From a bacterium (GTDB lineage: Bacteria; UBA4055): a DNA stretch of 55,751 nt. Positions within the stretch are counted from its first letter, which is position 1, and each line of letters opens with the position of its first letter. Made by a program: the position numbers and the translations under genes. The DNA is taken from the NCBI GenBank assembly GCA_029559475.1, contig JAKQBN010000007.1, forward strand, positions 1-55,751, given 5' to 3'. The notes below the pieces were generated by a model, which worked only from the letters and a program-made list of their open reading frames with translations, did not search any database and was not told where the DNA came from. Below are positions 23,253 to 46,553 of this stretch, piece after piece.

Positions 23253-23277
23253 GAAAAAATAAATAATTTTTAAGTTG

Positions 23278-23306
23278 TTGATTCATCGATATCTTTGCCG
23301 TATATT
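23278..23306 (+). promoter_or_regulatory. Promoter of the GLUG surface-protein gene
   Basis: TTGATT (23278-23283), 17-base spacer, TATATT (23301-23306), followed by AGAGG at 23323-23327 and the ATG at 23335. Confidence 0.6.
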
Positions 23307-23334
23307 GTTTTCTAAAGATATTAGAGGTAAAATC

Positions 23335-29074: not shown

Positions 29075-29794
29075 TCATATCATAGCCTCTGCGAATTTTC
29101 TGACAATTTCTTTGTCATCTGACTTTTCAAGCACATTGCCTACAACAATAAAATCAGCTCCGGCATCTACAAGAGTTGCTGCATATTCCGGCGTCCTGAT
29201 GCCTCCGCCCACGATCAGCGGAACTGATATTTCGGCTTTCACGGCTTTGATGATCTCGGGTGAAACCGGATTCTTCGCTCCGCTTCCCGCTTCGAGATAA
29301 ACATATTTCATGCCTATCATTTCCCCGGCGAGGGCGTGAGCAACGATGTTCGGTATATTTGATGATGGCAAAGGCTGAGTTTTACTGACGCGTTCGACTG
29401 AAGTCCTGTAGCCGCATTCGATAAGAATATATGCTGTCGGTAATACTTTAAGCCCGAGCTTTTTAACGAACGGGGCAGCTTTGACGTGATGCTCTATGAG
29501 AAAATCAGGATTCCTGCCGCTGATTAAAGTAATGAAAAGTATCCCGTCAGCGTAAGGCGTGACCTGCTCTGATGAACCCGGGAAAAGGATGAATGGAACT
29601 TTTGCGCACGATCTTATCTCTTTCGCGATCGCGTTGAAATCGTTTTTTACAGGCTGACTGCTCCCGTAAAAGAAAACGTCAGCCCCATGTTCCTGATACT
29701 GACCGACCTTATGTTTTACACCTATGGGACCTATCTTATCGGGATCTATCAGAACGATCAGACCCGCTCTGTTCCCGCTTTTTTTTTCAAGCAC
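29075..29794 (-). CDS. Geranylgeranylglyceryl phosphate synthase family (PcrB/GGGPS)
   Basis: A 239-residue TIM-barrel prenyltransferase. Recognisable blocks are LIDPDKIG near the start, FFYGSSQP, FILFPGSSEQV, TAYILIECGYRT, the MKYVYLEAGSGA segment (active-site YLEAGSGA), VSPEIIKAVK and LIVGGGIRTPE phosphate-binding loops. The family joins a polyprenyl diphosphate to sn-glycerol-1-phosphate, making an ether link as in archaeal lipids; bacterial homologues occur in Bacteroidetes and other FCB phyla and, as heptaprenyl enzymes, in Firmicutes. Start is GTG at 29794, 6 bases after an AGGA that overlaps the end of the LysM gene. Chain length of the prenyl donor cannot be settled by eye. Confidence 0.92.
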   Translation of the reverse strand: MLEKKSGNRAGLIVLIDPDKIGPIGVKHKVGQYQEHGADVFFYGSSQPVKNDFNAIAKEIRSCAKVPFILFPGSSEQVTPYADGILFITLISGRNPDFLIEHHVKAAPFVKKLGLKVLPTAYILIECGYRTSVERVSKTQPLPSSNIPNIVAHALAGEMIGMKYVYLEAGSGAKNPVSPEIIKAVKAEISVPLIVGGGIRTPEYAATLVDAGADFIVVGNVLEKSDDKEIVRKFAEAMI

Positions 29795-29802
29795 AAAAAT
29801 TC

Positions 29803-31338
29803 CTAACTTTTTTTAACTATATATTTTCTTCCCTTTATGACCGTGTTTTTGGTCATATTGTTTATCTTTTTGAAATCCTGTTCGGTCATTCCGAATTTAT
29901 TAGATATTCTTCCTACGGAATCGCCGGATCTTGCCGTGTAATACTGATATTTATAACCTTTTATCAGCAGAACGACGCCCGGTGTCAGGTATTTTTTTCC
30001 TGTGTCTTTCGGATTCCATTCCTTTAAATCGCTTACGCTAACTCCGTATAGATCGGCTATCTTCTGAAGATTATCGCCTTTCTTTATCTTATGATTGATC
30101 CTTATGAACGATTTTGAATACTTGGACTTCTGAGAACCCGCCTTTTTCTTACTGCTTTCTTTCTCAGGCACGAATTTTTTCGGATCTTTAATATAATCCT
30201 CATAAGAAGCAAGATAGCCGTCACCTTCTTCCGCTTCCGGACCGGCGCTTTTCAGGTCATGGTCATCAGGATTGGTCAGTATAATCACCATAGCGGCGAA
30301 ATTTGAAAAATTCTCTGTAAGAACATCTTTTTTCAAATCTTTTTGTTCCAGACTGTATTTCTCTGTTTCGACAATTGTGGCGATGATATTAAATTCATTG
30401 CCTTTTCTGCTAACAGATTTGATGCGCCTGATAACTTCTGCCGTAGAAGCGCCTGTATTGTTTCTGATGTTTTTGTAGGCTTTTGTGTTCTCAAGCCTCC
30501 AAATGCTCCCGTTCTTCGTACCTTCATAATAAGATGTCATTACGGCGGGTATGTAGGCGTAAATTTCGCTCAAACCATTATCTTTCAGCCTGTTCTTGAT
30601 GAATTTTACATATTTAAGAGAGCGGATATAAGTTTCTTTTATACCTATTCTGTCGCTCAGGTAATTTATATAATTTTCATAAACTGATTTGATAAACTCA
30701 TCTGTGGGCTTTAGATCGGTTTTTTCGAAAAGCGCTTTCGTCTTCTCTTCGGCATACGTGTAATTCGCGTTATTCTGCTTTACCTTATATACTTCAGTGT
30801 TCTGCTCGATCACGACTTCGTTCGGGTCTTTCCCGTTCGATAAAAGCTCTTCGTCGAAATACAATGACTCGTAAATATCGAAGATATTCGGACTTGATTC
30901 CTTTACGCTTTTGTCGCTGAACTCAGCCCAGAAATTCTCGAGCATGACTCTGTCGGACAGCTTCAGATCGCCGTAAAGATACTCGAGAGACTCAAGAAGA
31001 TTATCGAACATCAGTTTGGCTTTTGTAAGCTCTGCGTTCTGATAAAATGAAAGCAGATCGAAAAATTTCCTTTCGCAGTTGTCCTGTATCTCGTCCCTGT
31101 ATATCTCGACTATCCTGCTTTCACCCGTATCTTCGCGTATCACAAGATCGTTCGCACCGAGCATATCCTCATCGGCGTTGCTGATCTCTTCCGGAGTTAC
31201 TGTCTCAGCTTTTGAAGTACTGTCAGCAGCCTGAACGGTCTCCGGCTTCCTCATTTCGGTACTTAGCACACATGAATAAAAGACCAGTTGCAGAATTATC
31301 AGACATGCGTAAAATGTTTTTCTTTTATATTCAGCCAT
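29803..31338 (-). CDS. LysM lipoprotein with degenerate transglycosylase-like domain
   Basis: 511 residues starting with a lipoprotein signal (lipobox ending YSC, Cys23). A charged helical region runs to about 210. Residues about 215-370 follow the outline of MltD-like lytic transglycosylases (IYAYIPAVMTSYYEG at 259-273; FAAMVIILTNPDDHDLK later), but where active enzymes have a VES motif with the catalytic Glu this protein has VMTS. Two LysM repeats (about 412-460 and 466-511) provide peptidoglycan binding. It is therefore probably a wall-binding, envelope-localised protein that no longer cuts glycan. The gene is 15 bases downstream of eno on the same strand. Confidence 0.8.
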   Translation of the reverse strand: MAEYKRKTFYACLIILQLVFYSCVLSTEMRKPETVQAADSTSKAETVTPEEISNADEDMLGANDLVIREDTGESRIVEIYRDEIQDNCERKFFDLLSFYQNAELTKAKLMFDNLLESLEYLYGDLKLSDRVMLENFWAEFSDKSVKESSPNIFDIYESLYFDEELLSNGKDPNEVVIEQNTEVYKVKQNNANYTYAEEKTKALFEKTDLKPTDEFIKSVYENYINYLSDRIGIKETYIRSLKYVKFIKNRLKDNGLSEIYAYIPAVMTSYYEGTKNGSIWRLENTKAYKNIRNNTGASTAEVIRRIKSVSRKGNEFNIIATIVETEKYSLEQKDLKKDVLTENFSNFAAMVIILTNPDDHDLKSAGPEAEEGDGYLASYEDYIKDPKKFVPEKESSKKKAGSQKSKYSKSFIRINHKIKKGDNLQKIADLYGVSVSDLKEWNPKDTGKKYLTPGVVLLIKGYKYQYYTARSGDSVGRISNKFGMTEQDFKKINNMTKNTVIKGRKYIVKKS

Positions 31339-31353
31339 ATTTTACACTAGATC

Positions 31354-32670
<1,317 letters not shown>

Positions 32671-33354
32671 TTATTTAAAACTATTCATATCCGGCAGATT
32701 ATGTTTCGGCGCTTCCAGTTTTATGCCGTCTTCATTTTCTTCTTCGGTTTCTTCCTTAGGCGGAGTATAAACATAACCCTCTGTCCAAGGTACATATCCT
32801 GTAACTTTGGTTTCTTCGAGCATCTTCTCTTTTGAAACATAAAGATCCTCAACGCTGGCCTTGGATGTTTTTAGGTAGAGAGAATACACTGTTGATCTGT
32901 AAAAATCTATCGGTTCGTTAACCGTCATATTCACAAAATTATTCTTCATCATATTTGTCATGCCCTCTGGCGCGGCTTTATCCACAAAGGTGATACCGTA
33001 AAGCATTATAAGTAGAGCTGCTATGCAGAATCCCTTGAACATTCCCACAAAAAATCCGAGAGTTCTGTCGGCGGGAGTGTATTCATATTCCGGAATTTTT
33101 GTTATCTTTCCGAGAATATAAGTCAGGATCATAAAGACAACGAGAGTGGCTATAAGTACGCTTATAAAAGCCGCCAGTCCTTCAAGACCTGCCATATATT
33201 TCAGAAGCAAACCCTTAAGAAGTGTGGCAAGACCGGGCATAAATCCAAGGGTTAGAAGCAGTTTCTCAACACCGAATTTGTAATTGACCACACCTCTCAC
33301 TTTTCCGTTCCATCCGAAGAATATCATCAGTACCAAAGTAATTAAAGACATCAT
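32671..33354 (-). CDS. cvpA: CvpA family membrane protein
   Basis: 227 residues with four hydrophobic segments in the first 125: LITLVLMIFFGW, LLLTLGFMPGLATLLKG, FISVLIATLVVFMILTYILG and MFKGFCIAALLIMLYGITF, and the family-typical (A/D)RxLGFFVGMFKG turn before the last one. The remaining 100 residues are a charged cytoplasmic or periplasmic tail without a known domain. CvpA proteins are inner-membrane proteins linked to colicin V production and envelope stress; exact function is unresolved. A second Met directly follows the first. Confidence 0.8.
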   Translation of the reverse strand: MMSLITLVLMIFFGWNGKVRGVVNYKFGVEKLLLTLGFMPGLATLLKGLLLKYMAGLEGLAAFISVLIATLVVFMILTYILGKITKIPEYEYTPADRTLGFFVGMFKGFCIAALLIMLYGITFVDKAAPEGMTNMMKNNFVNMTVNEPIDFYRSTVYSLYLKTSKASVEDLYVSKEKMLEETKVTGYVPWTEGYVYTPPKEETEEENEDGIKLEAPKHNLPDMNSFK

Positions 33355-33366
33355 TTTATTTTCCCT

Positions 33367-34368
33367 TTATTTAAATAATTTTTCAGTTTTTACTTTCAGA
33401 CGCTGAAGAACTCCACTGTCTATTCTTTGGTCCGGTTCTGTTCGGGGCAGAGAATTAATAAGTTCTACTAGTTCCCTGTTCAGCTCTGAAACCGATCCTT
33501 TTGCGCATCCCGTGTCCGCGACCAATGAAAGTATATAATATATCTCCATAAAATCTTTAAATGTCAAGATATCATAATTAAAAATTCGTTCGCATTTCTG
33601 CTTTAATGACCCGATCTCCGCAATTTTATTTTTAACGATCCCGCTGCAGATATTATCTAATTCACGGATAATATTTCCGAAATATTTAACAAATTCGTCA
33701 GATGTTTTTGAGATAGAATCTTTTCCGGTAATGATCGTTAGATAATTTATATCTTTGGAAAAATAACCTGATGAATCTATGCAGTAAGCTTTTAAATCTG
33801 ATAAAATCTCCTCAGCACTTCCGAATAATCTTATCGCAGGTATTGTCAAGACTGAAAAACATTTGAGTCCCGTACCGAAATAATCAAGTGAAGCCGTAAG
33901 ATAGTTTCCGTTTTTATCTGCAGCGAATTCGCTGTAGTCGAACAATTTTATAAATTTTAGGCATCTGCCGTAAGCGATCTCTATGTCTTTCCCTGTCGCA
34001 TGGGCGAAAAAGGTTAAATGATCGTTATAGTTAGTAAGCAGATAAGAATCAGTCGTTTCGTAATGATACAATTTCATGCGGCTGAGAATTTCTTTACTCC
34101 TGTTCGGAAGTATCCTGAATTTCTGAAGTCTTGTAATATCTGCATCATCTGACGAAGATATGTCAATTACCTTTACTTCGCCTTCGCCGATCATTTTCTC
34201 AAGAACTTCATCGGTTTTTTTCCCGATCTGCCTGACTGCACTTAAGTCAGCCTGATCGGGGAAATTTATATATTTAAAATTCCGTACTATTTTTACAGAT
34301 GAATACAATGATACCCGGTTATCGTCTGACATGAACCAATCAGGTATACGCCTTGTTAGATCAGGCAT
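33367..34368 (-). CDS. McsB-like phosphagen-kinase fold protein lacking catalytic arginines
   Basis: 333 residues that follow the protein-arginine kinase McsB through most of its length: PDWFMSDDNRVSLYSSVKIVRNFKYINFP (10-38) against the usual SSRIRLARN; NYNDHLTF (113-120) against NEEDHxRI; NYLTASLDYFGTGLKCFSVLTIPA (155-178) against GYLTxxPxNxGTGLRASVxxHLPA. The ATP-phosphate-binding Arg of SSR is Val25, the Arg after DHx is Thr, and the RGTYGE loop is absent. Known phosphagen kinases need those arginines, so the protein probably lacks kinase activity and may bind arginine phosphate or a partner. It overlaps the lipA stop by 8 bases; mcsA, clpC or ctsR are not nearby. Confidence 0.75.
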   Translation of the reverse strand: MPDLTRRIPDWFMSDDNRVSLYSSVKIVRNFKYINFPDQADLSAVRQIGKKTDEVLEKMIGEGEVKVIDISSSDDADITRLQKFRILPNRSKEILSRMKLYHYETTDSYLLTNYNDHLTFFAHATGKDIEIAYGRCLKFIKLFDYSEFAADKNGNYLTASLDYFGTGLKCFSVLTIPAIRLFGSAEEILSDLKAYCIDSSGYFSKDINYLTIITGKDSISKTSDEFVKYFGNIIRELDNICSGIVKNKIAEIGSLKQKCERIFNYDILTFKDFMEIYYILSLVADTGCAKGSVSELNRELVELINSLPRTEPDQRIDSGVLQRLKVKTEKLFK

Positions 34369-35251
34369 TTTTCAAATCCTTCCTTATTGATGCGATAATT
34401 TCAGAAGCGTTGTATGAGCTTCTTGTAAATGGCGACGCATAAACATTTTTTATTCCGTAAGATCTCGCTGTTTCGGCAAATCTTTCGAACCATTCGGGTT
34501 CAAGATACTTTTGTACTTCAATATTTAATTTGGAAGGCCTCAAATACTGCCCGCAGGTAAATATATCTACTCCCGTTTCCGCCAGGTCGGAAAGCAGTCT
34601 TTTCAGCTGCTCGTCCGTCTCGCCCAGACCTACCATTATACCGGATTTTGACAGCATGTTCCTGTTATCATTCTTTATCCCCTTGAGAAAAGCCAGTGAT
34701 CGGTCGTAATCGGCCTCAGGACGCACTCTGGAATAAAGTTCCCTTACGGTTTCGACGTTATGATTAAATATTTCCGGCTTTTCGATCGAAACTCTTTTTC
34801 TGTCCTTTTCCACTCCTTTAAAATCAGGCGTCAGAACTTCAATCGTAGCATTAGATACCTTTCTTATTTCTTTTATCGTTTCGGCAAAATGACCCGACCC
34901 GCCGTCGGGTAGATCATCGCGGGTTACTGAGGTTATTACCGCGTGCAGTAAACCCATACTCCGAACCATTTCAGCGATCTTTGCGGGTTCGTCCGGATCG
35001 ACTTTTTCAGGAGTTGTATGGTTTATATTGCAGAATCTGCAGTTGCGCGAGCATTTATCACCCAGTATCATAAATGTAGCCGTTTTCTTTTTACCGAAGC
35101 ACTCGCAGAGGTTGGGGCATCTCGCTTCTTCGCAGACTGTGTGAAGATTCTTTCTTCTAAGCTCCTTTTTTAATTCAAGGACTTCCCCGTCATGCCTGAA
35201 ATCAATTTTTATCCACGGCGGAAGTTTGTTGCTTTTTTCATTTCCTGTCAT
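34361..35251 (-). CDS. lipA: Lipoyl synthase
   Basis: 296-residue radical SAM enzyme that inserts two sulfurs into protein-bound octanoate, making the lipoyl cofactor of 2-oxoacid dehydrogenases and the glycine cleavage system. Both iron-sulfur sites are visible: the auxiliary cluster CEEARCPNLCECF (CX4CX5C pattern) and the radical SAM cluster CSRNCRFCN (CX3CX2C). VTRDDLPDGGSGHFAETI, NHNVETVRELY and GQYLRPSKLN follow as in all LipA, and the C-terminal RSSYNA serine is present. No lipB lies in the window. It overlaps the histidine-kinase stop by 14 bases and the McsB-like start by 8, so the three are one transcription unit. Confidence 0.96.
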   Translation of the reverse strand: MTGNEKSNKLPPWIKIDFRHDGEVLELKKELRRKNLHTVCEEARCPNLCECFGKKKTATFMILGDKCSRNCRFCNINHTTPEKVDPDEPAKIAEMVRSMGLLHAVITSVTRDDLPDGGSGHFAETIKEIRKVSNATIEVLTPDFKGVEKDRKRVSIEKPEIFNHNVETVRELYSRVRPEADYDRSLAFLKGIKNDNRNMLSKSGIMVGLGETDEQLKRLLSDLAETGVDIFTCGQYLRPSKLNIEVQKYLEPEWFERFAETARSYGIKNVYASPFTRSSYNASEIIASIRKDLKNA

Positions 35252-37829
35252 TGTTTAAAACCTCGTATACTTTTTTTGTCAGCCCTGATATAGTGTACGG
35301 TTTCTGAATGAAATCCTTTGCTCCCGCCTTTAATACCTCCTCGACCCTGCTGTCCTGAGTAAAACCCGAAGTGACTACAACTTTAACACTTCCATTAATG
35401 CTGTATATTTCCTCAAAGGTTTCTTTTCCGTTCTTATTAGGCATCATCATATCAAGAAGAACCAGATCTATAGCCTTAATGTTCGTCTTATATTTTTCGA
35501 TTCCTTCTATCCCGTCCTCTGCAAGAATGACATTATATCCCGCCTGATTAAGCATAGCTCTCGCCAATTCTCTCAATACTGGTTCGTCGTCTATGACGAG
35601 TATCGTTCCTGAACCTTTTATGATGTTCTCGTTCTCTTTCTTAACCTGTGAGGCCGTTTTTTTATTGTATTTAGGGAAATATATAATGAATTCCGTGCCT
35701 GATCCGGGAGTTGATTCGACATCAATATGGCCTCCGAACTGCTGTATGATGTTGTAAACAATGGTAAGACCGAGGCCTGTTCCCAGACCTTTCTCCTTTG
35801 TTGAAAAGAAAGGTTCGAATATCTGCTTTATCACATTTGCGTCCATCCCGACCCCTGTATCTTTGATCGAAATTTTTAAATACTCTATTTCAGCAGATCC
35901 TGAAAATCCAATTGATTCTGAGCTCGGCACATTATCTACTATCTCGATCGTGAGAATACCCCCGGGTATTTCATGTTCTTTCCTCATTATCGTCATTGCA
36001 TGGTTCGCGTTAATAGCAAGATTTAATATCACCTGTTCGAGTTGTGTGAAATCAGCGAGAACCATTGTTTTGCTCTCAAGATTGAGCCCAAGTATCTTAA
36101 TTGATTTATCAAAGGTGTTCGAGCATATTTTTACTACATGTTTTAGAACCTCGCCTATCATAACAGGTTCGATCGTCGTATTCTGTTTTCTGGACAGGGT
36201 TAAAAGCCGCTGTACAATGTCTCCTGCCCTTTTTCCAGACTGTTCCATTATATTCAAATACTCATCAAGCTGGTCTTTTGTTATCTCCTGATCTTTATCG
36301 AGCTTGTATTTCAGAATTGATACTACCCCGACTATCCCACTGAGAATATTGTTGAAATCGTGAGCTATCCCGCCTGCAAGAGTACCGATAGTTTCCATTT
36401 TCTGGGCCTGTCTGAGCTGGTCTTCCTTCTTTCTGAGCTCGGTTATGTCGTCGATTCTTATGACCGATCCCTTAACACCGTTGGCAATAAGGGGGAACAT
36501 ATGGATGTTGACATTTATCTTTTCTCCGTCCCTGTAAGGCTCTCTGTATATTTCTATATGACCTTTCTCGTTGATAACTTTTAACAGTTCGTCCTTATAA
36601 ATTCCCAGCTTGGAAATCGATTTCCAGATCTCGTCCCCCTGTTTCATGCCGGTTTTAAGGTCTGAATATTTCTCGGCCGACCTGTTCCACTGTGTTATCT
36701 TTCCGCTGCTGTCTACAGCTATGAGAGCGGAAGGCATTGACTCGAAAATGTTCCACAGATAGTTCTGCAGATACTTTATCCTCGAAAAACTTCTTCCCAG
36801 GCTGGATGCCATTTTATTGTATTCATCCGCAAGTTTTCCTATCTCGTCATGACTCTTGACCTGAAGCGTTTCTATCGGCTGCCCGCTTTCTATCTGACCG
36901 GATGCATTCCCGATGCCTTCGAGAAGGTCAGTGATCGGACTGACCAGTTTGTTTTTGATAAATATACCCAGCAGCAGAATAAGGCCGATAAAAGTAAGTA
37001 TCAGGGCAGTAAAATGCTTTTTGGCCGTCTGAATATATTCCGGATCATCGTCAATGCTGACTGCTCCGTAAAGATCATCGTGAAAATCAGAGAGACGGAA
37101 CACGAGTATCTTTCGCTTTTTCCCAGATATAGTCCCGTCACGTACATATCCGTCATCTTCTCCATTCCTGTCGAGAATGAAAGTTCCCGGAGTAATATTA
37201 AAACCGTATTCGTCTGAAATAGTAGAAAATTTGTTAAGAAGCCCTTTATCGCTTTTCTTGAAGATAGTGAAATCGAAATGAAGTATCCTGCTTAATTCAA
37301 AGAAATTTTCCGCATCTATCAGTTTACCCACCGTGATCTCTGTTTTCTTTCTGTCTGATCCGTAGTGTAATTTTACTATTGAAAGAAAGTTTCCCGATGA
37401 ATAACATATGGACGGTTCATCTTTAGCGAAGCCGAAATCAGCCCCCGAAGATTTCTTGAGCTTTTGAGAATAAAATGATTGATCCATATCCTCTTCGCTT
37501 TTGATAAAAAGGAAATCGAACCCGTAGTTCGATTTTAAATACTCGAACACCTGTTCGTAATCAGGTACTGCTCCATGATCGAAAAAACTTCCGAACTCGT
37601 AATCGTCTCTCAATTTTATCATATTCGCGGACAGCAGATCTGTATTGCGGTCGAATAAAGATTCTATATAAGTTTTCCCTTCGGTTAATGATCTTTCTAC
37701 GCCTGAATAATAATTGTCAGATACGAGATCATACACGAAATAAGTTATTATGCATATCGGAGTAAAAACAATAAGGATAAAAAGAAGTATGAGTTTAAAA
37801 AATAGTTTTTTCTTAATAATATCAAGCAT
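35238..37829 (-). CDS. Hybrid sensor histidine kinase / response regulator
   Basis: 863 residues. A first membrane helix (11-33), an extracytoplasmic sensor region (about 35-270), a second helix (273-291), HAMP (about 292-345, VSPITDLLEGI), PAS (about 358-465, WNIFESMPSALIAVDSSGKITQWN), a HisKA domain with phospho-acceptor His490 in GGIAHDFNN, a HATPase domain (NLAINANHA, DTGVGM, FFSTKEKGLGTGLGL) and a C-terminal receiver with Asp793 in LLDMMMP. The sensor domain belongs to no family I can name. It probably passes phosphate to its own receiver and on to a separate regulator, perhaps the solitary receiver at 17781-18149. The gene overlaps lipA by 14 bases. Confidence 0.93.
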   Translation of the reverse strand: MLDIIKKKLFFKLILLFILIVFTPICIITYFVYDLVSDNYYSGVERSLTEGKTYIESLFDRNTDLLSANMIKLRDDYEFGSFFDHGAVPDYEQVFEYLKSNYGFDFLFIKSEEDMDQSFYSQKLKKSSGADFGFAKDEPSICYSSGNFLSIVKLHYGSDRKKTEITVGKLIDAENFFELSRILHFDFTIFKKSDKGLLNKFSTISDEYGFNITPGTFILDRNGEDDGYVRDGTISGKKRKILVFRLSDFHDDLYGAVSIDDDPEYIQTAKKHFTALILTFIGLILLLGIFIKNKLVSPITDLLEGIGNASGQIESGQPIETLQVKSHDEIGKLADEYNKMASSLGRSFSRIKYLQNYLWNIFESMPSALIAVDSSGKITQWNRSAEKYSDLKTGMKQGDEIWKSISKLGIYKDELLKVINEKGHIEIYREPYRDGEKINVNIHMFPLIANGVKGSVIRIDDITELRKKEDQLRQAQKMETIGTLAGGIAHDFNNILSGIVGVVSILKYKLDKDQEITKDQLDEYLNIMEQSGKRAGDIVQRLLTLSRKQNTTIEPVMIGEVLKHVVKICSNTFDKSIKILGLNLESKTMVLADFTQLEQVILNLAINANHAMTIMRKEHEIPGGILTIEIVDNVPSSESIGFSGSAEIEYLKISIKDTGVGMDANVIKQIFEPFFSTKEKGLGTGLGLTIVYNIIQQFGGHIDVESTPGSGTEFIIYFPKYNKKTASQVKKENENIIKGSGTILVIDDEPVLRELARAMLNQAGYNVILAEDGIEGIEKYKTNIKAIDLVLLDMMMPNKNGKETFEEIYSINGSVKVVVTSGFTQDSRVEEVLKAGAKDFIQKPYTISGLTKKVYEVLNNDRK

Positions 37830-37847
37830 CAGTCCATATTCCTTTTT

Positions 37848-39365
37848 TTAAAGTTTGGAAATATCGGTCATCCTGTTATTCTCACGCATTCCGACAGCCG
37901 ATGTTTCTATTATATAGTCCTTAAGGATCTCCCGCATCTGTTTCTGATAGGTTTCCTTCAGTATTATCCCCATTTCACCGAATTCAGTATATGAATCTCC
38001 GCCCTGAAATATATAATCGGTCATAGAAACTGAATATACGGTATCTTTATCAAGCGGCTTTCCGTTCACTTTGATCGAGTTCTTTACAACTCTGTTCATG
38101 GGCGGCTTGGACGAATCGTAGCTGAATGATATTCCTGAGACCTGAAGAAAGCTTTTACCCATTTTTATAGCGCAGGAACTTTCCAGAATTGTTATCAACT
38201 GGCTGCCTTTGAGATCAGCTGATACCAGATTTCCTTCATAAGGCAGAACGTTGTAGAGATCCTGCAAAGTAACGGGACCTTTTTCGAAGCCGTTCCTGAC
38301 TTTTCCGCTATTCATCACAAAGATGTCGGTCTTTGTATATTCCCGCATAATATCGCAGATAAGATCTCCGAGCGGTGTTTCCGAAGTGAATCGGTCGGTC
38401 TTTGCATGTGGTATGTCTTCAACAGCAGTTCCGAGTACGGTTCCTGTTATTGATTTGATCATCTGCCCGATCTCCGCCATTTTTTTTGTAAGGTTCACAT
38501 CCGGCTCTATTACATCAGAATTCACCGGGTGCCGTCTCGGGTTGACAATTAAGCCTTTCTTGATCTCAAATGATACTATTTCGGATCCGTTGATCCCGCA
38601 GCTGAGTATCGGTTTTTCCTTCGACATTTCGTCGTATTTATTTTTTTCTATAGTCGTTAAAAAAAGTGATACTTCTTTAACCGAGAAAAGGTTCTTGATC
38701 TCTTCGTCTGTCAGGTTAGACGACGAACTTATATTACTGTCGAAATCACCGGCAACGATAATATTCTTGATCCCTTTAGCCTTTAATTCAGCAGTATATT
38801 TTATGACAGAGGAAGCAGGATCGGATATTATGATCTCGCTCACGTCCCGGGCAAGATTGGCTTTGATCACCTTGCCTGAGCTGATCCCGATCACTGCGGA
38901 AATGCTGTCGTTCAGGATAATGTAGGGTTTTATAAAATCGAGCCTTGAAGAATCTTTTGAAATAAGATTAGCGGAGACGAACGGGAATTTAGCTGTTTCT
39001 GAAAGTTGTTTCAGCCTTTCGAATCCGAAATAAAACTCTCTATGTCCTATTACCAAGCATGAGAAACCGAGCTCGTTCATAAGGTCTATCACTGCTTTTC
39101 CTTCAGTAAAATAAGCCTCTGATGTTCCGTAAATGAAATTAGAGTTCCCGATGAGCACTGTACCGCTGTTCCCGCTCTTGTTCCTGATATCATTTATTCT
39201 TGAGGAAATAAGACTGAATCCGCCGGTTCTCAGACTGTCTTTTTCTATCGGAAAAATATTCCCGTTAAGAGAACTTACGGATACTACGTCCAGATCCGCT
39301 TTTACCCCTGAACAAGATAAAATAACAGCTGCTGCTGCAAGCGCGGCCGAAAATAATCTCTTCAT
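37848..39365 (-). CDS. UshA/5'-nucleotidase-like lipoprotein with degenerate phosphoesterase domain
   Basis: 505 residues with a lipoprotein signal (lipobox VILSC, Cys18). The C-terminal domain (from about residue 300) is clearly the 5'-nucleotidase C domain: ETPLGDLICDIMREYT, NSGKVRNGFEKGPVTLQDLYNVLPYEGNLV, and IFQGGDSYTEF. The N-terminal metallophosphoesterase has the right outline but not the metal ligands: the usual DxH near the start is SSLNGN, the GD of DAGD is IGNS (72-75), and GNHEFD is GHREFY (107-112). Catalysis is therefore unlikely; ligand binding by the C-domain remains possible. A GGGAGG precedes the ATG. It lies between the histidine kinase and the DUF4175-like gene. Confidence 0.8.
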   Translation of the reverse strand: MKRLFSAALAAAAVILSCSGVKADLDVVSVSSLNGNIFPIEKDSLRTGGFSLISSRINDIRNKSGNSGTVLIGNSNFIYGTSEAYFTEGKAVIDLMNELGFSCLVIGHREFYFGFERLKQLSETAKFPFVSANLISKDSSRLDFIKPYIILNDSISAVIGISSGKVIKANLARDVSEIIISDPASSVIKYTAELKAKGIKNIIVAGDFDSNISSSSNLTDEEIKNLFSVKEVSLFLTTIEKNKYDEMSKEKPILSCGINGSEIVSFEIKKGLIVNPRRHPVNSDVIEPDVNLTKKMAEIGQMIKSITGTVLGTAVEDIPHAKTDRFTSETPLGDLICDIMREYTKTDIFVMNSGKVRNGFEKGPVTLQDLYNVLPYEGNLVSADLKGSQLITILESSCAIKMGKSFLQVSGISFSYDSSKPPMNRVVKNSIKVNGKPLDKDTVYSVSMTDYIFQGGDSYTEFGEMGIILKETYQKQMREILKDYIIETSAVGMRENNRMTDISKL

Positions 39366-39376
39366 AAAAGCCTCCC

Positions 39377-42300
39377 TCAGTTTTCAAGTTCTTTAAAGTA
39401 ATTTTTTATTTTAACTTTATATTTGTTCGTATAACCGTCCTTCAATGATCTGAGCATCATCTCTCTTAAGTCCTGGCCGTTTTTTATTTTTAGCACTCCG
39501 GGATCTACCGCTATCTTATCACCTGATGAACTTTCTCTTTTATTCTCATATTTTTCCCTTTTCGCCGACTCTATAGCGTCAAGAAGTTTATCGAGCGCCT
39601 GATTCTGATTAGCCATTAATGATTCTGTGAGTTTTTTGTCTTTGAGCTGCTTTTCTGCTTCTTTCATGGATTCTGCCGCGTTGCCGAGTTTTTTCCCCAG
39701 TCCGGAATTTCCAGCCATTCCGCCTTCACCGCCCGGTCCCTGCTTTGGACTGCCGCTGCCGCCCGGTTTTCCGTTATCACCCGGTATATTTCCGCTCATT
39801 CCGTCCATCGGAGATCCCTGATCACCCGGCTGGCCTTCTTTTCCGGGCTGCTGCATCTTAGACTGCATTTTCATTAAAGCTTCGTATAATTGAGCCTGCT
39901 CCATTGCAAGCCTGTTCATCATCTGCTGCATCTGCGACATGCTCATCTGCCCCTGTCCGCTCTGCATGGACGATGTCTGAGAGTTGAGTTCAGCTTGCTT
40001 TCTAGCCATCTCCTCCATCTTTTTGATCATTTCATCCATCCCGGATGCGGAAGAGGAATTATCCATCTCGTCTTTCGCGTCATTCAGCAGTACTGCGAGT
40101 CTGTTCAGACCACCCATAAGAGCGTTGTTCCTGTCGTAAGTTGCCGAGAACTGACGGTTTTTGATTATTTCCGACATCTGACCGAAAAGAGATGAGATCC
40201 TTCCTAACTGACCTATAGTAAGATTGTTTATGAAAAAGGTTCTTTTAGCGATCGCGAATATCTTCTCGGTAACAGAATTAAACGAGCTTTCCGCTCTTGA
40301 GAATTTTTTCAGAACTTCAGATGAATGCGATGACCCTGAAGACAGGTCTTTTGAAAAATTCTTGACCTCTTCAACTCTTTCAGAAACCAGAATTACTTCC
40401 GAGATCACCTTCTCGATCTCTTTTTTCATTTCTTTCTTCTGCTTTTCATTCATTTCATCCTTTAATTCGGCCAGGCTCTTTTTTGTTTTAAGAAGCTCTG
40501 ATGCTATTTCAGTCCCTTTATTTTTAGCGTTTTTAGCGTCATTTTTTTCCAGGCTTTTCTTCATTTCCGCAAAATCATTTTTTGTTCCGTCTTTATCAAG
40601 CTCAGACATAATTTCACCGACACTGAGCTCTTTTGAATCTTTATTCAGTTTGTCGAGTTCTTTTTCAAAGAAACTGAACGATGATTCTATCTTTTCTTCT
40701 TTGGTGACCTCCTTTTTCGCGTCATTCGCTTCTGATAATGCGGAATTAACTTCATTCTGCCTTGTTATCATATCGTCCAGCTGCCTGATAAGCCTTTCGA
40801 TCATATATTCGTTCTTTATCTGCTCCAGAATCTCAATCGATTTCTCGAGTTCTTCGCCGAACTGCTTCTGCTGCTGTTCAAAATCGCTCAGCAGTTCAGC
40901 ATATTTGTTCTTATCGAATTTTCCCGCATCCGACATCTCGCTCAGCTTCTTAAGCTTTTCTTTCATGTCATCAGGAAAAATACCGTCGATCAGCTCCTTC
41001 AACTTCATGTATTTCTGCATTGTTTCTTCGCTGATTATCGAGTTTTCGTCAAGCGTAGAAATATTTTCGCTGATATCTTCTTTAAGTTCGTCAAGTGTTC
41101 TGTTCATTCTCTCCTGATCATCCGCCATCTGCTTTAATTTCTTTTCATCCTCCCATCCCAGCTGCTGATTCTTTTTTAATTTTTCTGCGATATTGGAAAG
41201 TTTTTCAATCACCTCATTACTTTTTTTAAGCTCTTCTTTCAGCACCCTGTCCTGTGTCTCATAATTTTGTTCTGATCCCGCTAGCAACTGCTCCATAGAG
41301 GGGAGCATAACTGTCCTAATCTCTGAATCGGTAAATTTTGGCCCTGATACACCGTCGTTGTCGAAAACCCTTATGAACACTTCGACTTTATCTTCGGGAA
41401 GAAGGTTAAGATCAGCACAAGAAAACGAAGTGTTTATGGCGTATACGCCGTCTGAGTTCTCCTTTACAGGGATACGTATCTTTGCGTATCCGGATCTTTC
41501 AGTCTTGCCCGCGAACTCCAGAAAAGAAATTTTCCTATAGTTGACGAATGCTGAACTAAGCTCGAAGTCATCCGCGGCTGCAGCTAGAACCGGAACGTTC
41601 AGCGACTGATCGATCAGATAACCGTCTTCGGGAAGAATAAAGTTGACTACCGGGAATTCGTCTTTTATTATCTCTGCTTTCTGAACAACAGGATCGAAAT
41701 TTTTAAGTACTATCCCGCGCTCGCTCGAGTAAAGTCTGAAAGTGAATTCGGAATCAGACAGAAAGCTAATTTCATTAAAATACGATCCGTCTGAATTTCT
41801 GATCAGTTCTTTTCTTTTCCCGTCTGTAAACTCAATAAAAGCCGAATCGAGTTCATTTACCGTAGTTTTTATATTGAATTTTACTTTTGAACCTTTATAA
41901 AGTGAGATTTTCGAAATGATCTCGTTATATTCTTTTTCCGGAATTCTGGTATAATCCGGAGATATAACTTTTACAGACATCGAGGATATGTCTGGTCTTC
42001 TGATAACCGAGACGAACCCGGTATCGGATACGGTTTCTGACGATTCGAAATAATAGTAGAAACTCGTATTTTCTGCAGTTCGGATCCTGAACAATCCCGG
42101 ATCCGCAGGCATTACCTCCCTGCTTATGAATACATCGCTGTTGACGTACCTTTTCTTTAATCTGATAATTCCGGGTACGTCGCCATCAGATCTGCATACA
42201 AGCTCGATCGAATCCATTTCTGCTGTTAAAATATCTTTGCTGATCAGCTTTAGAAAGTGGCTTGGAGGAACTGAATAATCCCTGCTGAAATTTATAAGCC

Positions 42301-42841
42301 GTTCGCCTGCTGATATAGCGGAATTTATATTTAAGATCGCAGCCGCAGTCAAACCCGCTGCCGCCAGCCTGAACCACGATAGATATGTCTGCCGGTAAGA
42401 AAAGAACACAGGTTTTTCCCTTTTTTCGTTAAACCTTTGGGCAAGATCGTTGAAGGCGATATCATAAAGAGCTGAATTCTCTTTTTTAATGCTCAGATCG
42501 TGCATCATCAGCAGATTGAGGTCAGGATATGCAGAGTCGATTTCGGAAACTGTCTCTCTTTTACTGAGCCTGTGTTTTTTATAGCTTCGAAAAAAGAATA
42601 TCAGGTAACGGATCAATATTATTAGAACCGCGGCGGTACCTGCAAAGAACAGGATCCTCCTTGCTGATGTGCCGAACCGGTAAGACATTTCAATCATGAT
42701 CAAAATTACGATTATAATTGCAGAAAAGAATACTGTTCCAGACAGTTTTGCTATGTTGGCTCTAATAAAATTCAGAGAAACATACCTGCCGATCAGTAAA
42801 GAAACATTATCCCGGATATTTTCAGTAATTTTTTTGTGCAC
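39377..42841 (-). CDS. Large membrane coiled-coil protein (DUF4175-like)
   Basis: 1154 residues. Two membrane helices lie in the first 85 residues (SGTVFFSAIIIVILIMIEM and ILFFAGTAAVLIILIRYLIFFF) and a third near 155-178. A beta-rich extracytoplasmic region (about 195-520) follows, then about 350 residues of Lys/Glu-rich coiled coil, and a Met/Gln- then Gly/Pro-rich stretch (about 990-1065) of MQSGQGQMSMSQMQQMMNR type before a basic tail. The layout is that of DUF4175-family proteins of unknown function. Start is GTG at 42841, overlapping the kinase gene by 20 bases, so translation is coupled to the kinase. Proposed role: an envelope scaffold; this is inference. Confidence 0.75.
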   Translation of the reverse strand: MHKKITENIRDNVSLLIGRYVSLNFIRANIAKLSGTVFFSAIIIVILIMIEMSYRFGTSARRILFFAGTAAVLIILIRYLIFFFRSYKKHRLSKRETVSEIDSAYPDLNLLMMHDLSIKKENSALYDIAFNDLAQRFNEKREKPVFFSYRQTYLSWFRLAAAGLTAAAILNINSAISAGERLINFSRDYSVPPSHFLKLISKDILTAEMDSIELVCRSDGDVPGIIRLKKRYVNSDVFISREVMPADPGLFRIRTAENTSFYYYFESSETVSDTGFVSVIRRPDISSMSVKVISPDYTRIPEKEYNEIISKISLYKGSKVKFNIKTTVNELDSAFIEFTDGKRKELIRNSDGSYFNEISFLSDSEFTFRLYSSERGIVLKNFDPVVQKAEIIKDEFPVVNFILPEDGYLIDQSLNVPVLAAAADDFELSSAFVNYRKISFLEFAGKTERSGYAKIRIPVKENSDGVYAINTSFSCADLNLLPEDKVEVFIRVFDNDGVSGPKFTDSEIRTVMLPSMEQLLAGSEQNYETQDRVLKEELKKSNEVIEKLSNIAEKLKKNQQLGWEDEKKLKQMADDQERMNRTLDELKEDISENISTLDENSIISEETMQKYMKLKELIDGIFPDDMKEKLKKLSEMSDAGKFDKNKYAELLSDFEQQQKQFGEELEKSIEILEQIKNEYMIERLIRQLDDMITRQNEVNSALSEANDAKKEVTKEEKIESSFSFFEKELDKLNKDSKELSVGEIMSELDKDGTKNDFAEMKKSLEKNDAKNAKNKGTEIASELLKTKKSLAELKDEMNEKQKKEMKKEIEKVISEVILVSERVEEVKNFSKDLSSGSSHSSEVLKKFSRAESSFNSVTEKIFAIAKRTFFINNLTIGQLGRISSLFGQMSEIIKNRQFSATYDRNNALMGGLNRLAVLLNDAKDEMDNSSSASGMDEMIKKMEEMARKQAELNSQTSSMQSGQGQMSMSQMQQMMNRLAMEQAQLYEALMKMQSKMQQPGKEGQPGDQGSPMDGMSGNIPGDNGKPGGSGSPKQGPGGEGGMAGNSGLGKKLGNAAESMKEAEKQLKDKKLTESLMANQNQALDKLLDAIESAKREKYENKRESSSGDKIAVDPGVLKIKNGQDLREMMLRSLKDGYTNKYKVKIKNYFKELEN

Positions 42842-45800
42842 TCGGCATCCTGTTGTCCTGTTTCATTTCCTCCTCTTCTATCACTCTTGAAGAGTAACGC
42901 AGTTCGGGGTAATCTTCCGAATATTTTTCGAATTCCTTTTTGGCCAGTTTGAAGCAGGATAGCGCTCTGTAATTTTCTTCCATGTCCATATATACCCTAC
43001 CGAGATTGTAATTGACCTGAGCTTTATAAAAACTCAGTTCGTGGTTTCCGAGGAACTGAATTATGTTCGACATGTCTTTTATTCCGTTAGCCTGATCACC
43101 GGCATAGCATCTTATCCTGTCATAAAATATCATAAGTTTCAGATTTAGCAGTTTATTTTCTTTGAGTATCTCATCATTCTGAACATAAAGAGAATGTGCA
43201 TGACTGACGGTCTGAACTGTACGATTGTAATCTTTCATTTTATCGTAGACCAGAGCTTTTATGACTCTAAACATTATTCTTCTGTGGAGCATGGCGAAAG
43301 ATTCGACCGTCTTCTCTATCTTCTGCAGTGTTTTCAAAGCTTTTTTATGTTTGCCGGACTGCATCGAAACAAGAGCTTCAAGTATGTGGAACTCTATGAC
43401 GAAGTTCCTGTTCTCCTTCGTAAAATATGCTTCTGCCATCTGAAGAATTTTTCGGGCTTCCTCTGTTTTGTACATCCTTAGAAGAATCCTGCATTCCAGA
43501 AAAAAACATTCAGTCAGTTTTACATTTCTTTTTAAAAGAGCTCTAATTTCTTTGGACCTGTTTATACTGAAAATCGCGTCTTCCGTCTGACCGGTCTGAT
43601 AATATATAAGCGCTCTGTTGTAATAAATATCTCCTGAAAGGTCTGCGATGTTCACGTCCTCGGGTTTTTCCACGCCGCAGTTGATGAACTCCAGAGCTTT
43701 ATCTATATCTACTTTATTCATCTCGAATTCGGCTATCCTGTGAGACGATTTTACTTCGTATGTAATATCGTTTTGATCCTTGGCCAGAGCATTGCATTTT
43801 TCGTAATACTCCAGAGATGTGCTCTTGTCGTTTAACCATCTGCAAATATCTCCAAGCGAGCAGTATGTGTCAAGCATATGCTCGATCTCATTGTAACGTG
43901 TAAAAACATCAAGAGAATAAAGCAGGTCGCCGTATATATTTTTTAAATTTCCGAGAAGTATCTTGATCTTGCAGATCTTAAGCAGTGTTTTTGTCTTCAA
44001 AAGCTCGTTTCTGCTCTTTTTGTAAACTCCCATCGCTTTTTTATAAAAACTCAGGGATTTTTCATATCTGCCGTTGTTCTTGTTGTGATCGCCAAGCCAC
44101 ACAAAGTAAGACGCTTTTATTTCCTTAGGCATATTTCTTTTGATCTTGAAATTGATAAGCCATTCTCTTGTATTGTCGAGATGGTCATATCTGCCTGCTT
44201 TTGAAGCGCAGTCGAATTTAATAAGTTTTATTTTTAAAAGGTCGATATCTGAGACTGTGTGCTTCTCGTTCTCGAATTTCACAAGCTGATCGAGCACGGT
44301 GTCATAACTTCCGAGGATCGTCTGATTCTGAATTATCTTGATGAATATATCTATGTTCTTCTGAGGATCGGTCTCAATAGTCTGCAGCCTCTTCAGGTTC
44401 GTGACAGCGAACTCGAGGTTATTCTCCTCGAAGGATTTATTGATAGCTGATCCAAGCATGACGATCGCTTTGTCAACACGGTTCTGACACCGGAAGTAAT
44501 AATCGGCAAGTGCATATATGTTGTTACCTGTAACTCCGAATTTTTTCTCGATCAGTCTTGCGGTCATCTCGTTCCATCTCGGATATTCGTCTTTCTGGAA
44601 ATCCTTGACGACAGAATTGTGAAAAAGTTTATTCCCCAGATAATAACGGTAGCCGTCGTAGTATTTGATCTTTTCTATTACTTCACTGTCAGTAAGTTTC
44701 TGGAGAAATTTTATTATTATCTGCCGATTGACCATCGTTACTTTAGCGATTATTTCTACAATATCGAAAGCGGCCGGTCTTCCGATTATCATCAGCTCTT
44801 TAATAATGGCTTGTTCTATTATTGAAAAACGCTTGAAATTGCTGAAAGTGATCTCACGTAATCCGAGAGTGAGTTCAGACAAGAAAGACGGATTCAGTAT
44901 CCATTTCATCTTATAGCGATTCAGATAATTGTTGTTGAAAAGATATATCATGAGCTCGTTTATATAGTAAGGCACACCGCCCGTAAATTTATGGATGAAA
45001 CTGACGACTTCTTCCGGGATCGACGTTTCCATTAATAGCTGTGTCACATATTCCCTCGTTTCTACAAGGGCCAGTGGATTAATATCGAGTTTGTGAATGT
45101 TCTCTCTCAGCCTTTTTATAGTTATCTTGTGGTATGACTTAAGGTTTTCGATCTGAACCGTTGTAACTATCATGAATGCCATCTGTTTTTCAGGATATTT
45201 GCGCATTTCCCCGGCCAGACGTTCCAGCAGGTTTATAGACGGCGAATTGGAATTGTCAAAATCCTTAAGCTCCAACACGAATTTATTCTTTCTCGAAATA
45301 CTGCAGATAAATTCAGCCATGGCATCAACTTCTTCGATCCTTTTCAGCTTCGATCCCGCCATATCGTCGTAATTTTCTATCTCATCGTCGTTCTCGAAAA
45401 GGAATTTCAGCCTGGGAAACTCCTCGAGATTTAGCCTGTAAACCCTGAACATCTCGAGTATGATTATCTCGAATGCCTGATAAGTCGTTTCGTCACCCCG
45501 GATGAAATTAGCAGTAAAATAATCAATGTTCTCATTCAGCTGTATCAGGTATTTATATTCTCGGAGTATAGATGATTTTCCGTTACCGTATCTTCCAATC
45601 AGAAATATCGGTTTATTATCGTAAAATATCTTTTCCTTGAATACTTTGGATGATATCTCCATCAGAAAGCTCAGCTCCTTCTTTCTGCCTATGAGTTTGC
45701 CTGAAGAAATATAAGATCTTATGCCCATCCCTGTAAAAAGATATTGTACCGAACTTTTTTTCTGAGGATCTTCAACAAGATCCATTATTATCTCGTCGGC

Positions 45801-46553
45801 GTTGTCATATCTTTTATCGGGATCCGGCTGCATCATCTTCGATATGACCCTGACAAGTTTCTTCGGAATGTCTTTTCTTATTTCTTCAAGCGGTACGAAT
45901 TCTCCCTTTATCGCATTTGAGATTATTTCCTGCTTGTCTTTTCCTTTGAAGGGCAATTTTCCGGTAATGCTGAAATAGAAAGTGACGCCGAGTGAAAAGA
46001 AGTCTATCTTATGCGTGACGTTTTTTTTCTGAATAAGTTCAGGAGCTATGAACTGCATCGTTCCCCTGATTTCGGTAGTGTTCTTTGACCCCGCAAAACC
46101 GAAATCCATTATTTTTAATTTACCGTAATCATCGATAAAAATGTTGTCAGGCTTAATATCATAGTGTATTATCTCTTTTGAGTGGATGTAGGATAAAGCT
46201 CTAGATGCCTGTATAAGGTTATTCTCCACTTTTTCCCATGAAAAACTTTCCTTAAGAGACTTGAAGAGCGATTTTCCCTGAATGTACTCCATCGTAAAAA
46301 AAAGCTCATTCGTGTCCTTATCGATATCGAAATCGTAAACTTTTACAAGATTCGGATGTACAAGCGAGATAAGAAACTTGAACTCGTGTTTGAATACATT
46401 TATAGCCTTAGTGGATATGACATCCGATTTTATTTTTTTCAGAGCCAGTGTTTTGCCGTATTCGAACTGATCAGCTACCCTGAATACGCTGCCGAAACCG
46501 CCCTGACCCAGTATCTGCAGGGTCAGATATCTCTGATTAATTAATTTATCCAT
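42822..46553 (-). CDS. Ser/Thr protein kinase fused to AAA ATPase and TPR repeats
   Basis: 1243 residues from ATG 46553 (MDKLINQRYLTLQILGQGG); an upstream GTG at 46577 is less likely because kinase domains of this type begin with this segment. Kinase domain (1-265): glycine loop GQGGFGSV (16-23), Lys in LALKKIK, catalytic loop HYDIKPDN (130-137, HRD changed to HYD with Asp132 kept), DFG (150-152), and FIAPELI. An AAA/STAND-like ATPase follows with Walker A GRYGNGKSS (320-328). The second half (from about 670) is helical with many TPR-like repeats (LEYYEKCNALAKDQ, YYNRALIYYQTGQTEDAI). Architecture matches large PknK-like signalling kinases. It heads the minus-strand run and overlaps the DUF4175-like gene. 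Confidence 0.9.
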   Translation of the reverse strand: MDKLINQRYLTLQILGQGGFGSVFRVADQFEYGKTLALKKIKSDVISTKAINVFKHEFKFLISLVHPNLVKVYDFDIDKDTNELFFTMEYIQGKSLFKSLKESFSWEKVENNLIQASRALSYIHSKEIIHYDIKPDNIFIDDYGKLKIMDFGFAGSKNTTEIRGTMQFIAPELIQKKNVTHKIDFFSLGVTFYFSITGKLPFKGKDKQEIISNAIKGEFVPLEEIRKDIPKKLVRVISKMMQPDPDKRYDNADEIIMDLVEDPQKKSSVQYLFTGMGIRSYISSGKLIGRKKELSFLMEISSKVFKEKIFYDNKPIFLIGRYGNGKSSILREYKYLIQLNENIDYFTANFIRGDETTYQAFEIIILEMFRVYRLNLEEFPRLKFLFENDDEIENYDDMAGSKLKRIEEVDAMAEFICSISRKNKFVLELKDFDNSNSPSINLLERLAGEMRKYPEKQMAFMIVTTVQIENLKSYHKITIKRLRENIHKLDINPLALVETREYVTQLLMETSIPEEVVSFIHKFTGGVPYYINELMIYLFNNNYLNRYKMKWILNPSFLSELTLGLREITFSNFKRFSIIEQAIIKELMIIGRPAAFDIVEIIAKVTMVNRQIIIKFLQKLTDSEVIEKIKYYDGYRYYLGNKLFHNSVVKDFQKDEYPRWNEMTARLIEKKFGVTGNNIYALADYYFRCQNRVDKAIVMLGSAINKSFEENNLEFAVTNLKRLQTIETDPQKNIDIFIKIIQNQTILGSYDTVLDQLVKFENEKHTVSDIDLLKIKLIKFDCASKAGRYDHLDNTREWLINFKIKRNMPKEIKASYFVWLGDHNKNNGRYEKSLSFYKKAMGVYKKSRNELLKTKTLLKICKIKILLGNLKNIYGDLLYSLDVFTRYNEIEHMLDTYCSLGDICRWLNDKSTSLEYYEKCNALAKDQNDITYEVKSSHRIAEFEMNKVDIDKALEFINCGVEKPEDVNIADLSGDIYYNRALIYYQTGQTEDAIFSINRSKEIRALLKRNVKLTECFFLECRILLRMYKTEEARKILQMAEAYFTKENRNFVIEFHILEALVSMQSGKHKKALKTLQKIEKTVESFAMLHRRIMFRVIKALVYDKMKDYNRTVQTVSHAHSLYVQNDEILKENKLLNLKLMIFYDRIRCYAGDQANGIKDMSNIIQFLGNHELSFYKAQVNYNLGRVYMDMEENYRALSCFKLAKKEFEKYSEDYPELRYSSRVIEEEEMKQDNRMPSAQKNY

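Follow-up and report, generated by a model that had tools for sequence, protein, structure and literature searches.

A predicted kinase-dead McsB homologue within a conserved, modular gene cluster of Candidatus Delongbacteria

McsB is defined by phosphorylating arginine, which marks proteins for ClpCP. Here, we report that a 55,751-nucleotide stretch of bacterial DNA (the window; UBA4055 lineage, contig JAKQBN010000007.1 of GCA_029559475.1, a 2.28 Mb metagenome assembly) carries, within a run of closely packed minus-strand genes, an McsB homologue that has lost its catalytic residues. The run is a real gene cluster conserved in Delongbacteria, a poorly known bacterial phylum, and it is modular. 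Our best overall explanation, held tentatively and at somewhat less than even chances, is that the kinase-dead McsB is kept in this cluster as a phosphoarginine-independent scaffold or adaptor, by a mechanism that we infer. Since the protein is predicted to be kinase-dead, is under selection and is retained together with McsA and ClpC, a scaffold or adaptor without phosphoarginine marking is the simplest reading. If true, the McsB scaffold would be useful without its chemistry and adaptor function would be separable from phosphoarginine marking; the old question of whether McsB is an adaptor or a kinase becomes directly testable, and the annotation "protein arginine kinase" in a genome need not mean phosphoarginine.

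Eight residues were scored in 12 Delongbacteria sequences, namely five phosphate-binding arginines, two substrate glutamates and one cysteine. These form the phosphagen-kinase set known from Limulus arginine kinase. Part of the set is confirmed in PMC12467219. The Delongbacteria McsBs keep zero to two of the eight residues and the window protein keeps none (0/8), in agreement with the pseudo-arginine kinase named in an earlier reading of this DNA (the original prediction). The arginine of the GTGLR motif is a lysine in 12/12 sequences, and the phosphoarginine receptor motif RDxxRA, which corresponds to R337/D338 of B. subtilis McsB (PMC8370763), is lost in the main clade, its D and R being kept in the outgroup genomes G004 and G006 only. 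The window protein matches PF00217 with 36.7 bits (cut-off 22.4) and misses the NCBIfam McsB equivalog cut-off (50.6 vs 385). Its predicted model has a pLDDT of 85, and the best Foldseek matches in the PDB are McsB structures, covering both domains, with a TM-score of 0.81 to 6fh1_A over ~350 columns. Each genome has one PF00217 gene (13/13), i.e., a second, active McsB elsewhere in the genome was not found in the 13 genomes (PF00217, E 0.1). The dN/dS values are 0.08-0.20 for McsB, 0.05-0.06 for lipA and 0.01-0.02 for eno. Together with the open frames, these values indicate that the McsB gene is under purifying selection, less strict than that on lipA or eno; decay in the assembly is rejected in view of the open frames in 12 relatives and the McsB dN/dS.

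The pseudo-McsB resembles the McsB of the McsA-McsB-ClpC system (B. subtilis, G. stearothermophilus, S. aureus; 6fh1, 6tv6, 8gqd) in being homologous to it, in having the same predicted two-domain fold and in having McsA and ClpC encoded in the genome. It is unlike that system in its near-complete loss of the catalytic set and its lost receptor motif; moreover, the gene has moved from mcsA/clpC to a CvpA-enolase neighbourhood, and no YwlE was seen. An McsA with four CxxC motifs and a UVR motif was read in 10 genomes; that of the window genome matches NCBIfam McsA with an E-value of 1.3e-21 over residues 1-173. The ClpC-like open reading frame (ORF) has two Clp_N domains and a UVR motif. McsA was not found in G009 (86% complete), nor ClpC in G012 (79% complete). 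The mcsA gene is not adjacent to mcsB; it overlaps or directly borders lolD-like genes, and its position in most genomes read is behind lolC/E- and lolD-like genes (G000:C47, L157:3721-6172; L161, L166, L168). In G006, genes resembling tig, clpP and clpX lie just upstream of mcsA on the same strand. As for the phosphatase, the readable LMWPc genes are ArsC-like (HNSARSQMAEAF...CDxxxxERCP), so that no YwlE was seen within this one Pfam family, whose matches were read in most, not all, genomes; other phosphatase families were not searched.

The nine genes of the run occupy 46553-29803, separated by overlaps of 20, 14 and 8 bases or otherwise by gaps of 11-18 bases, as the original prediction had described, and the close packing extends one gene beyond LysM, to PcrB, across an 8-base gap. 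The reading frames of the run are mostly intact. The genes are as follows, in their order on the minus strand.

42822..46553, minus strand: Kin (ATG start), 1243 aa, Ser/Thr kinase with an AAA_16-like ATPase and TPR, cytosolic, assigned by domains, motifs and orthologues
39377..42841, minus strand: CC (GTG start inside Kin, 20-base overlap), 1154 aa, three N-terminal transmembrane (TM) helices, a long coiled coil and a DUF4175-like C-terminus
37848..39365, minus strand: NT, exported or lipoprotein pseudo-5'-nucleotidase with 5_nucleotid_C
35238..37829, minus strand: HK, membrane hybrid histidine kinase, PAS-HisKA-HATPase-REC
34361..35251, minus strand: LipA, radical SAM/LIAS_N, lipoyl synthase homologue, 14-base overlap with HK
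33367..34368, minus strand: pseudo-McsB, predicted kinase-dead protein-arginine-kinase homologue, 333 aa, ATP-gua_Ptrans, 8-base overlap with LipA
32671..33354, minus strand: CvpA-family membrane protein, Colicin_V
31354..32655, minus strand: Eno, enolase
29803..31338, minus strand: LysM lipoprotein, two LysM and an MltD-like domain without the catalytic Glu
29075..29794, minus strand: PcrB-family (prenylglyceryl phosphate synthase) gene

A promoter scan of the run gave matches at the level of shuffled sequence, and the promoter and terminator scan together yielded nothing usable for the transcript limits.

Relatives were found through the McsB-like protein and belong to Candidatus Delongbacteria, in a UBA4055-like family, with one outgroup labelled Cloacimonadota. 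The order Kin-CC-NT-HK-LipA-McsB-CvpA-Eno is kept in G001, G005, G008, G007 and G012, which represent several genera, and up to the contig ends in G002 (as far as McsB), G003, G009, G010 and G011; on the G003 contig NT is missing between CC and HK. Divergent pheS-pheT genes lie upstream of Kin in the relatives that keep this order. LysM-PcrB-thioesterase follows Eno in genera g1, g4 and g7, and PcrB follows LysM in all main-clade relatives covering the position. The near relatives are syntenic well beyond the run on both sides (pheS-pheT, pcrB, thioesterase, mutL-like), so part of the colinearity seen in the nearest genera is background, and the informative comparisons are those with genus g6 and the outgroups. 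In g6, LysM is located elsewhere and synteny breaks directly after Eno, with PheST to Eno intact. In the outgroup genera g3 and g5, only McsB-CvpA-Eno is preserved as a unit, and a thioesterase gene stands immediately before McsB; CC and LysM have other locations in the genome, and orthologues of Kin or NT were not found. CvpA adjoins the pseudo-McsB in every relative whose contig reaches that far. Because the outgroups keep only McsB-CvpA-Eno together, the run appears to have been assembled from modules whose parts are separable. The conserved-neighbourhood analysis that had been proposed for this locus thus finds the block colinear in several genera, not a set scattered with no two genes together. 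The colinearity across genera, the mostly intact frames and dN/dS values far below 1 speak for more than a chance arrangement. Of the two genes suspected to be passengers, lipA and eno, the latter belongs to the most deeply conserved trio. Two interruptions were seen in CC, i.e., the gene is split in G001 (L089:4222-7700), and in G003 (L052) the stretch that was matched contains a stop; both lie near contig ends or frameshifts and are probably assembly errors.

In the mechanism we propose, pseudo-McsB-CvpA-enolase would be the oldest core, to which the module of kinase, membrane protein, pseudonucleotidase, histidine kinase and lipoyl synthase would have been added on the upstream side in the main clade, and LysM-PcrB on the downstream side in some genera. 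The pseudo-McsB may bind McsA and substrates or ClpC, thereby feeding or regulating the ClpC(P) machine. With less support, the neighbouring CvpA might anchor this system at the inner membrane, which is proposed because clpC, too, has a CvpA paralogue (Pfam Colicin_V) as its partner in the main clade, standing directly before it in six main-clade genomes and not in the two outgroups. The CvpA link consists of two independent adjacencies, McsB-CvpA and CvpA-ClpC, and is the weaker part of the explanation. The upstream kinase and histidine-kinase genes would probably couple a stress or envelope signal to expression or activity. In the window genome the second CvpA gene overlaps clpC (G000:C60, L156:4531-7690; further cases in L158, L160, L162, L164 and L172). 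CvpA was also looked for beside McsB outside Delongbacteria and was found at 0/91 loci.

Several observations weigh against an adaptor without phosphoarginine. The McsB of B. subtilis depends on its kinase activity for its role as an adaptor (PMC5506225); the interest of the scaffold reading lies in its departure from this view. The genes mcsA, mcsB and clpC stand at three separate places in Delongbacteria, and the YwlE absence has the narrow base given above. The loop that contacts McsA, known from S. aureus, has a conservation of 0.61 against a protein mean of 0.53, which is only weakly above the mean, and we do not take it as proof of McsA binding. In ClpC, the equivalent of E106 is kept throughout; at the equivalent of E32, the main clade has Gly or Thr and the outgroups have Glu; other genomes with a pseudo-McsB keep both. 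The idea that loss of McsB catalysis tracks loss of the phosphoarginine-site glutamates of ClpC is unsupported, since only the Delongbacteria main clade lost E32. These glutamates also serve the ClpC resting state (PMC12583610), and their retention is thus uninformative. What ties Kin, CC, NT and HK to McsB is colinearity.

Three other explanations were weighed against the scaffold or adaptor. The run may be a conserved superoperon whose functions are unrelated and which common transcription and slow rearrangement have kept intact within a small phylum; pseudo-McsB, CvpA and enolase would then have no mechanistic tie to the signalling genes upstream, and every pseudoenzyme would serve a separate, unrelated purpose. 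We regard this as quite possible, if on balance doubtful: the housekeeping genes lipA and eno lie inside the run, the flanks are also colinear in near relatives, and in the outgroups the parts are found at three or more places; however, the synteny of g6 breaks right after Eno while PheST-Eno is intact, and McsB-CvpA-Eno survives in outgroup genera where the rest is dispersed. It is very improbable that the McsB homologue retains enzymatic activity, with altered chemistry or a remodelled active site. In favour of this, the McsB fold is kept in the prediction and some newly invariant positions have arisen in Delongbacteria (the Lys in place of the GTGLR Arg, and Ser172), but all catalytic classes, i.e., the phosphate-binding arginines, both glutamates and the cysteine, are replaced.

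The third explanation is close to the envelope-signalling locus of the original prediction: Kin would signal through CC, the pseudonucleotidase and the pseudotransglycosylase would be sensors of envelope ligands, and HK would give a second input. The translational coupling of Kin and CC is conserved in relatives, Kin and HK both keep their active-site motifs, the nucleotide-binding domain at the C-terminus of NT is retained, and peptidoglycan is the usual ligand of LysM proteins. We nevertheless consider such a pathway improbable, because the topology of CC probably puts the coil in the periplasm, CC is present without Kin in the outgroups, and LysM is elsewhere in g6 and the outgroups. The cluster and its pseudoenzymes are borne out, but not a single pathway, given a cytosolic Kin, a probably periplasmic CC coil and parts that are separable in the outgroups; the pseudo-McsB is more suggestive of protein quality control by ClpC than of envelope signalling.

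The topology of CC deserves some detail. Three N-terminal hydrophobic segments are present in the CC of every full-length relative, and these helices place the long coiled coil in the periplasm, so that ~970 residues of CC are probably periplasmic and beyond the reach of the cytosolic Kin, which has no TM segment. The only part of CC open to Kin is a loop of ~77 residues between helices 2 and 3 (about residues 82-158). Phosphoproteomics of the coiled coil as a decisive test was accordingly set aside. The DUF4175-like label of CC is a match to the C-terminal part only, with 24.2 bits against a curated cut-off of 27.3, while the 20-base overlap of its GTG-start gene with the kinase-ATPase-TPR gene agrees with the coordinates first given.

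In Kin, the kinase motifs GxGGFG, ALKK, HYDIKPDN, DFG and APE are kept in every orthologue covering them, the AAA_16 match of the ATPase is below the cut-off, and Walker A is kept and Walker B altered. Within the main clade, its orthologues share 60-79% identity. Each genome also has about five paralogues that are more distant and similar in size, among which the Kin of the run is the most conserved; those in G000 (C22, C39, C42 and others) are 1253-1413 aa long and ~26-31% identical over the N-terminal half. The nearest likeness of this architecture we take to be that of PknK-like proteins, which share the N-terminal Ser/Thr kinase, the central ATPase and the TPR tail; Kin is unlike them in that no regulator domain was seen and in its many paralogues. 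HK was correctly called a hybrid histidine kinase, as its PAS-HisKA-HATPase-REC domains are accompanied by the H-box His, the N, G1 and G2 boxes and the REC Asp/Lys.

The three pseudoenzymes that had been claimed for the run are all supported. NT aligns over its whole length with 5'-nucleotidases (best 3ivd, E 2.9e-33). It is like UshA/NadN/CD73 5'-nucleotidases (3ivd, 1ush) in the two-domain architecture and the C-terminal nucleotide-binding motifs (NSGKVR, FLQVSG, GGDSY), and unlike them in the N-terminal metallophosphatase motifs, which are lost in 9/9 orthologues, GNHEF having become GHREF and D-x-H and HAH being gone. The LysM protein (predicted model pLDDT 70) has as its best fold match MltD with LysM repeats (8rhf, E 2.4e-8, ~360 columns), and its own LysM repeats are likewise at the C-terminus. 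It departs from MltD in the catalytic Glu position, aligned by eye, which is Thr or Ser in 11/11 orthologues covering it, and the overall fold similarity is weak (TM 0.2-0.4, multi-domain model).

Degenerate McsBs are not confined to Delongbacteria. Among 386 genomes searched, 146 have an McsB, and 135 of these lie outside Delongbacteria; 90 of the latter were inspected, weak matches first. All eight residues are kept in 55 and six to seven in 8, and 27 keep five or fewer (21 keep three or fewer). The 27 degenerate proteins come from 21 family codes; 24 of them lie next to an McsA-like sequence or are fused with one, and 14 are neighbours of ClpC. The fraction 27/135 (20%) is a lower bound for McsB-bearing genomes outside Delongbacteria, in a sample that is not unbiased. 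A quick tree requires six or more switches between the intact and the degenerate state, with Delongbacteria as one clade; long branches meet in it and make this number uncertain, so the number of independent losses is left unclaimed, and we state only that catalysis, as judged from these residues, is lost more than once. The boldest proposal is that kinase-dead McsBs make up a recurrent class with a function of its own, present in Delongbacteria and no fewer than 21 further families, usually with McsA and ClpC and acting as a non-enzymatic adaptor, which in Delongbacteria would be paired with CvpA in a membrane-linked ClpC system; in this full form we consider the proposal rather unlikely. Our literature searches turned up neither a report of a degenerate McsB nor one that connects CvpA to ClpC, which is weak evidence as most subscription papers lay outside their coverage. 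Apparent McsA-McsB fusions of 541-558 aa with a degenerate McsB part were seen at L223 (G128) and L227 (G259). At L219-L221 (G042, G185, G311), a near-intact McsB stands beside a ClpC with Leu at the first phosphoarginine-site Glu.

Some minor observations concern the DNA downstream of the run. The PcrB gene is noted here as well, FCB bacteria that carry archaeal-type lipid genes being of interest. Between PcrB and the thioesterase gene, the window has a large DNA methyltransferase/restriction-like ORF (26163-29039), where relatives have PcrB and thioesterase directly adjacent; a 74% identical copy of this ORF is found at another place in G005 (L118). Further on, at 23275-25728, a protein with a Por_Secre_tail sorting domain suggests a type IX-like secretion system in the lineage.

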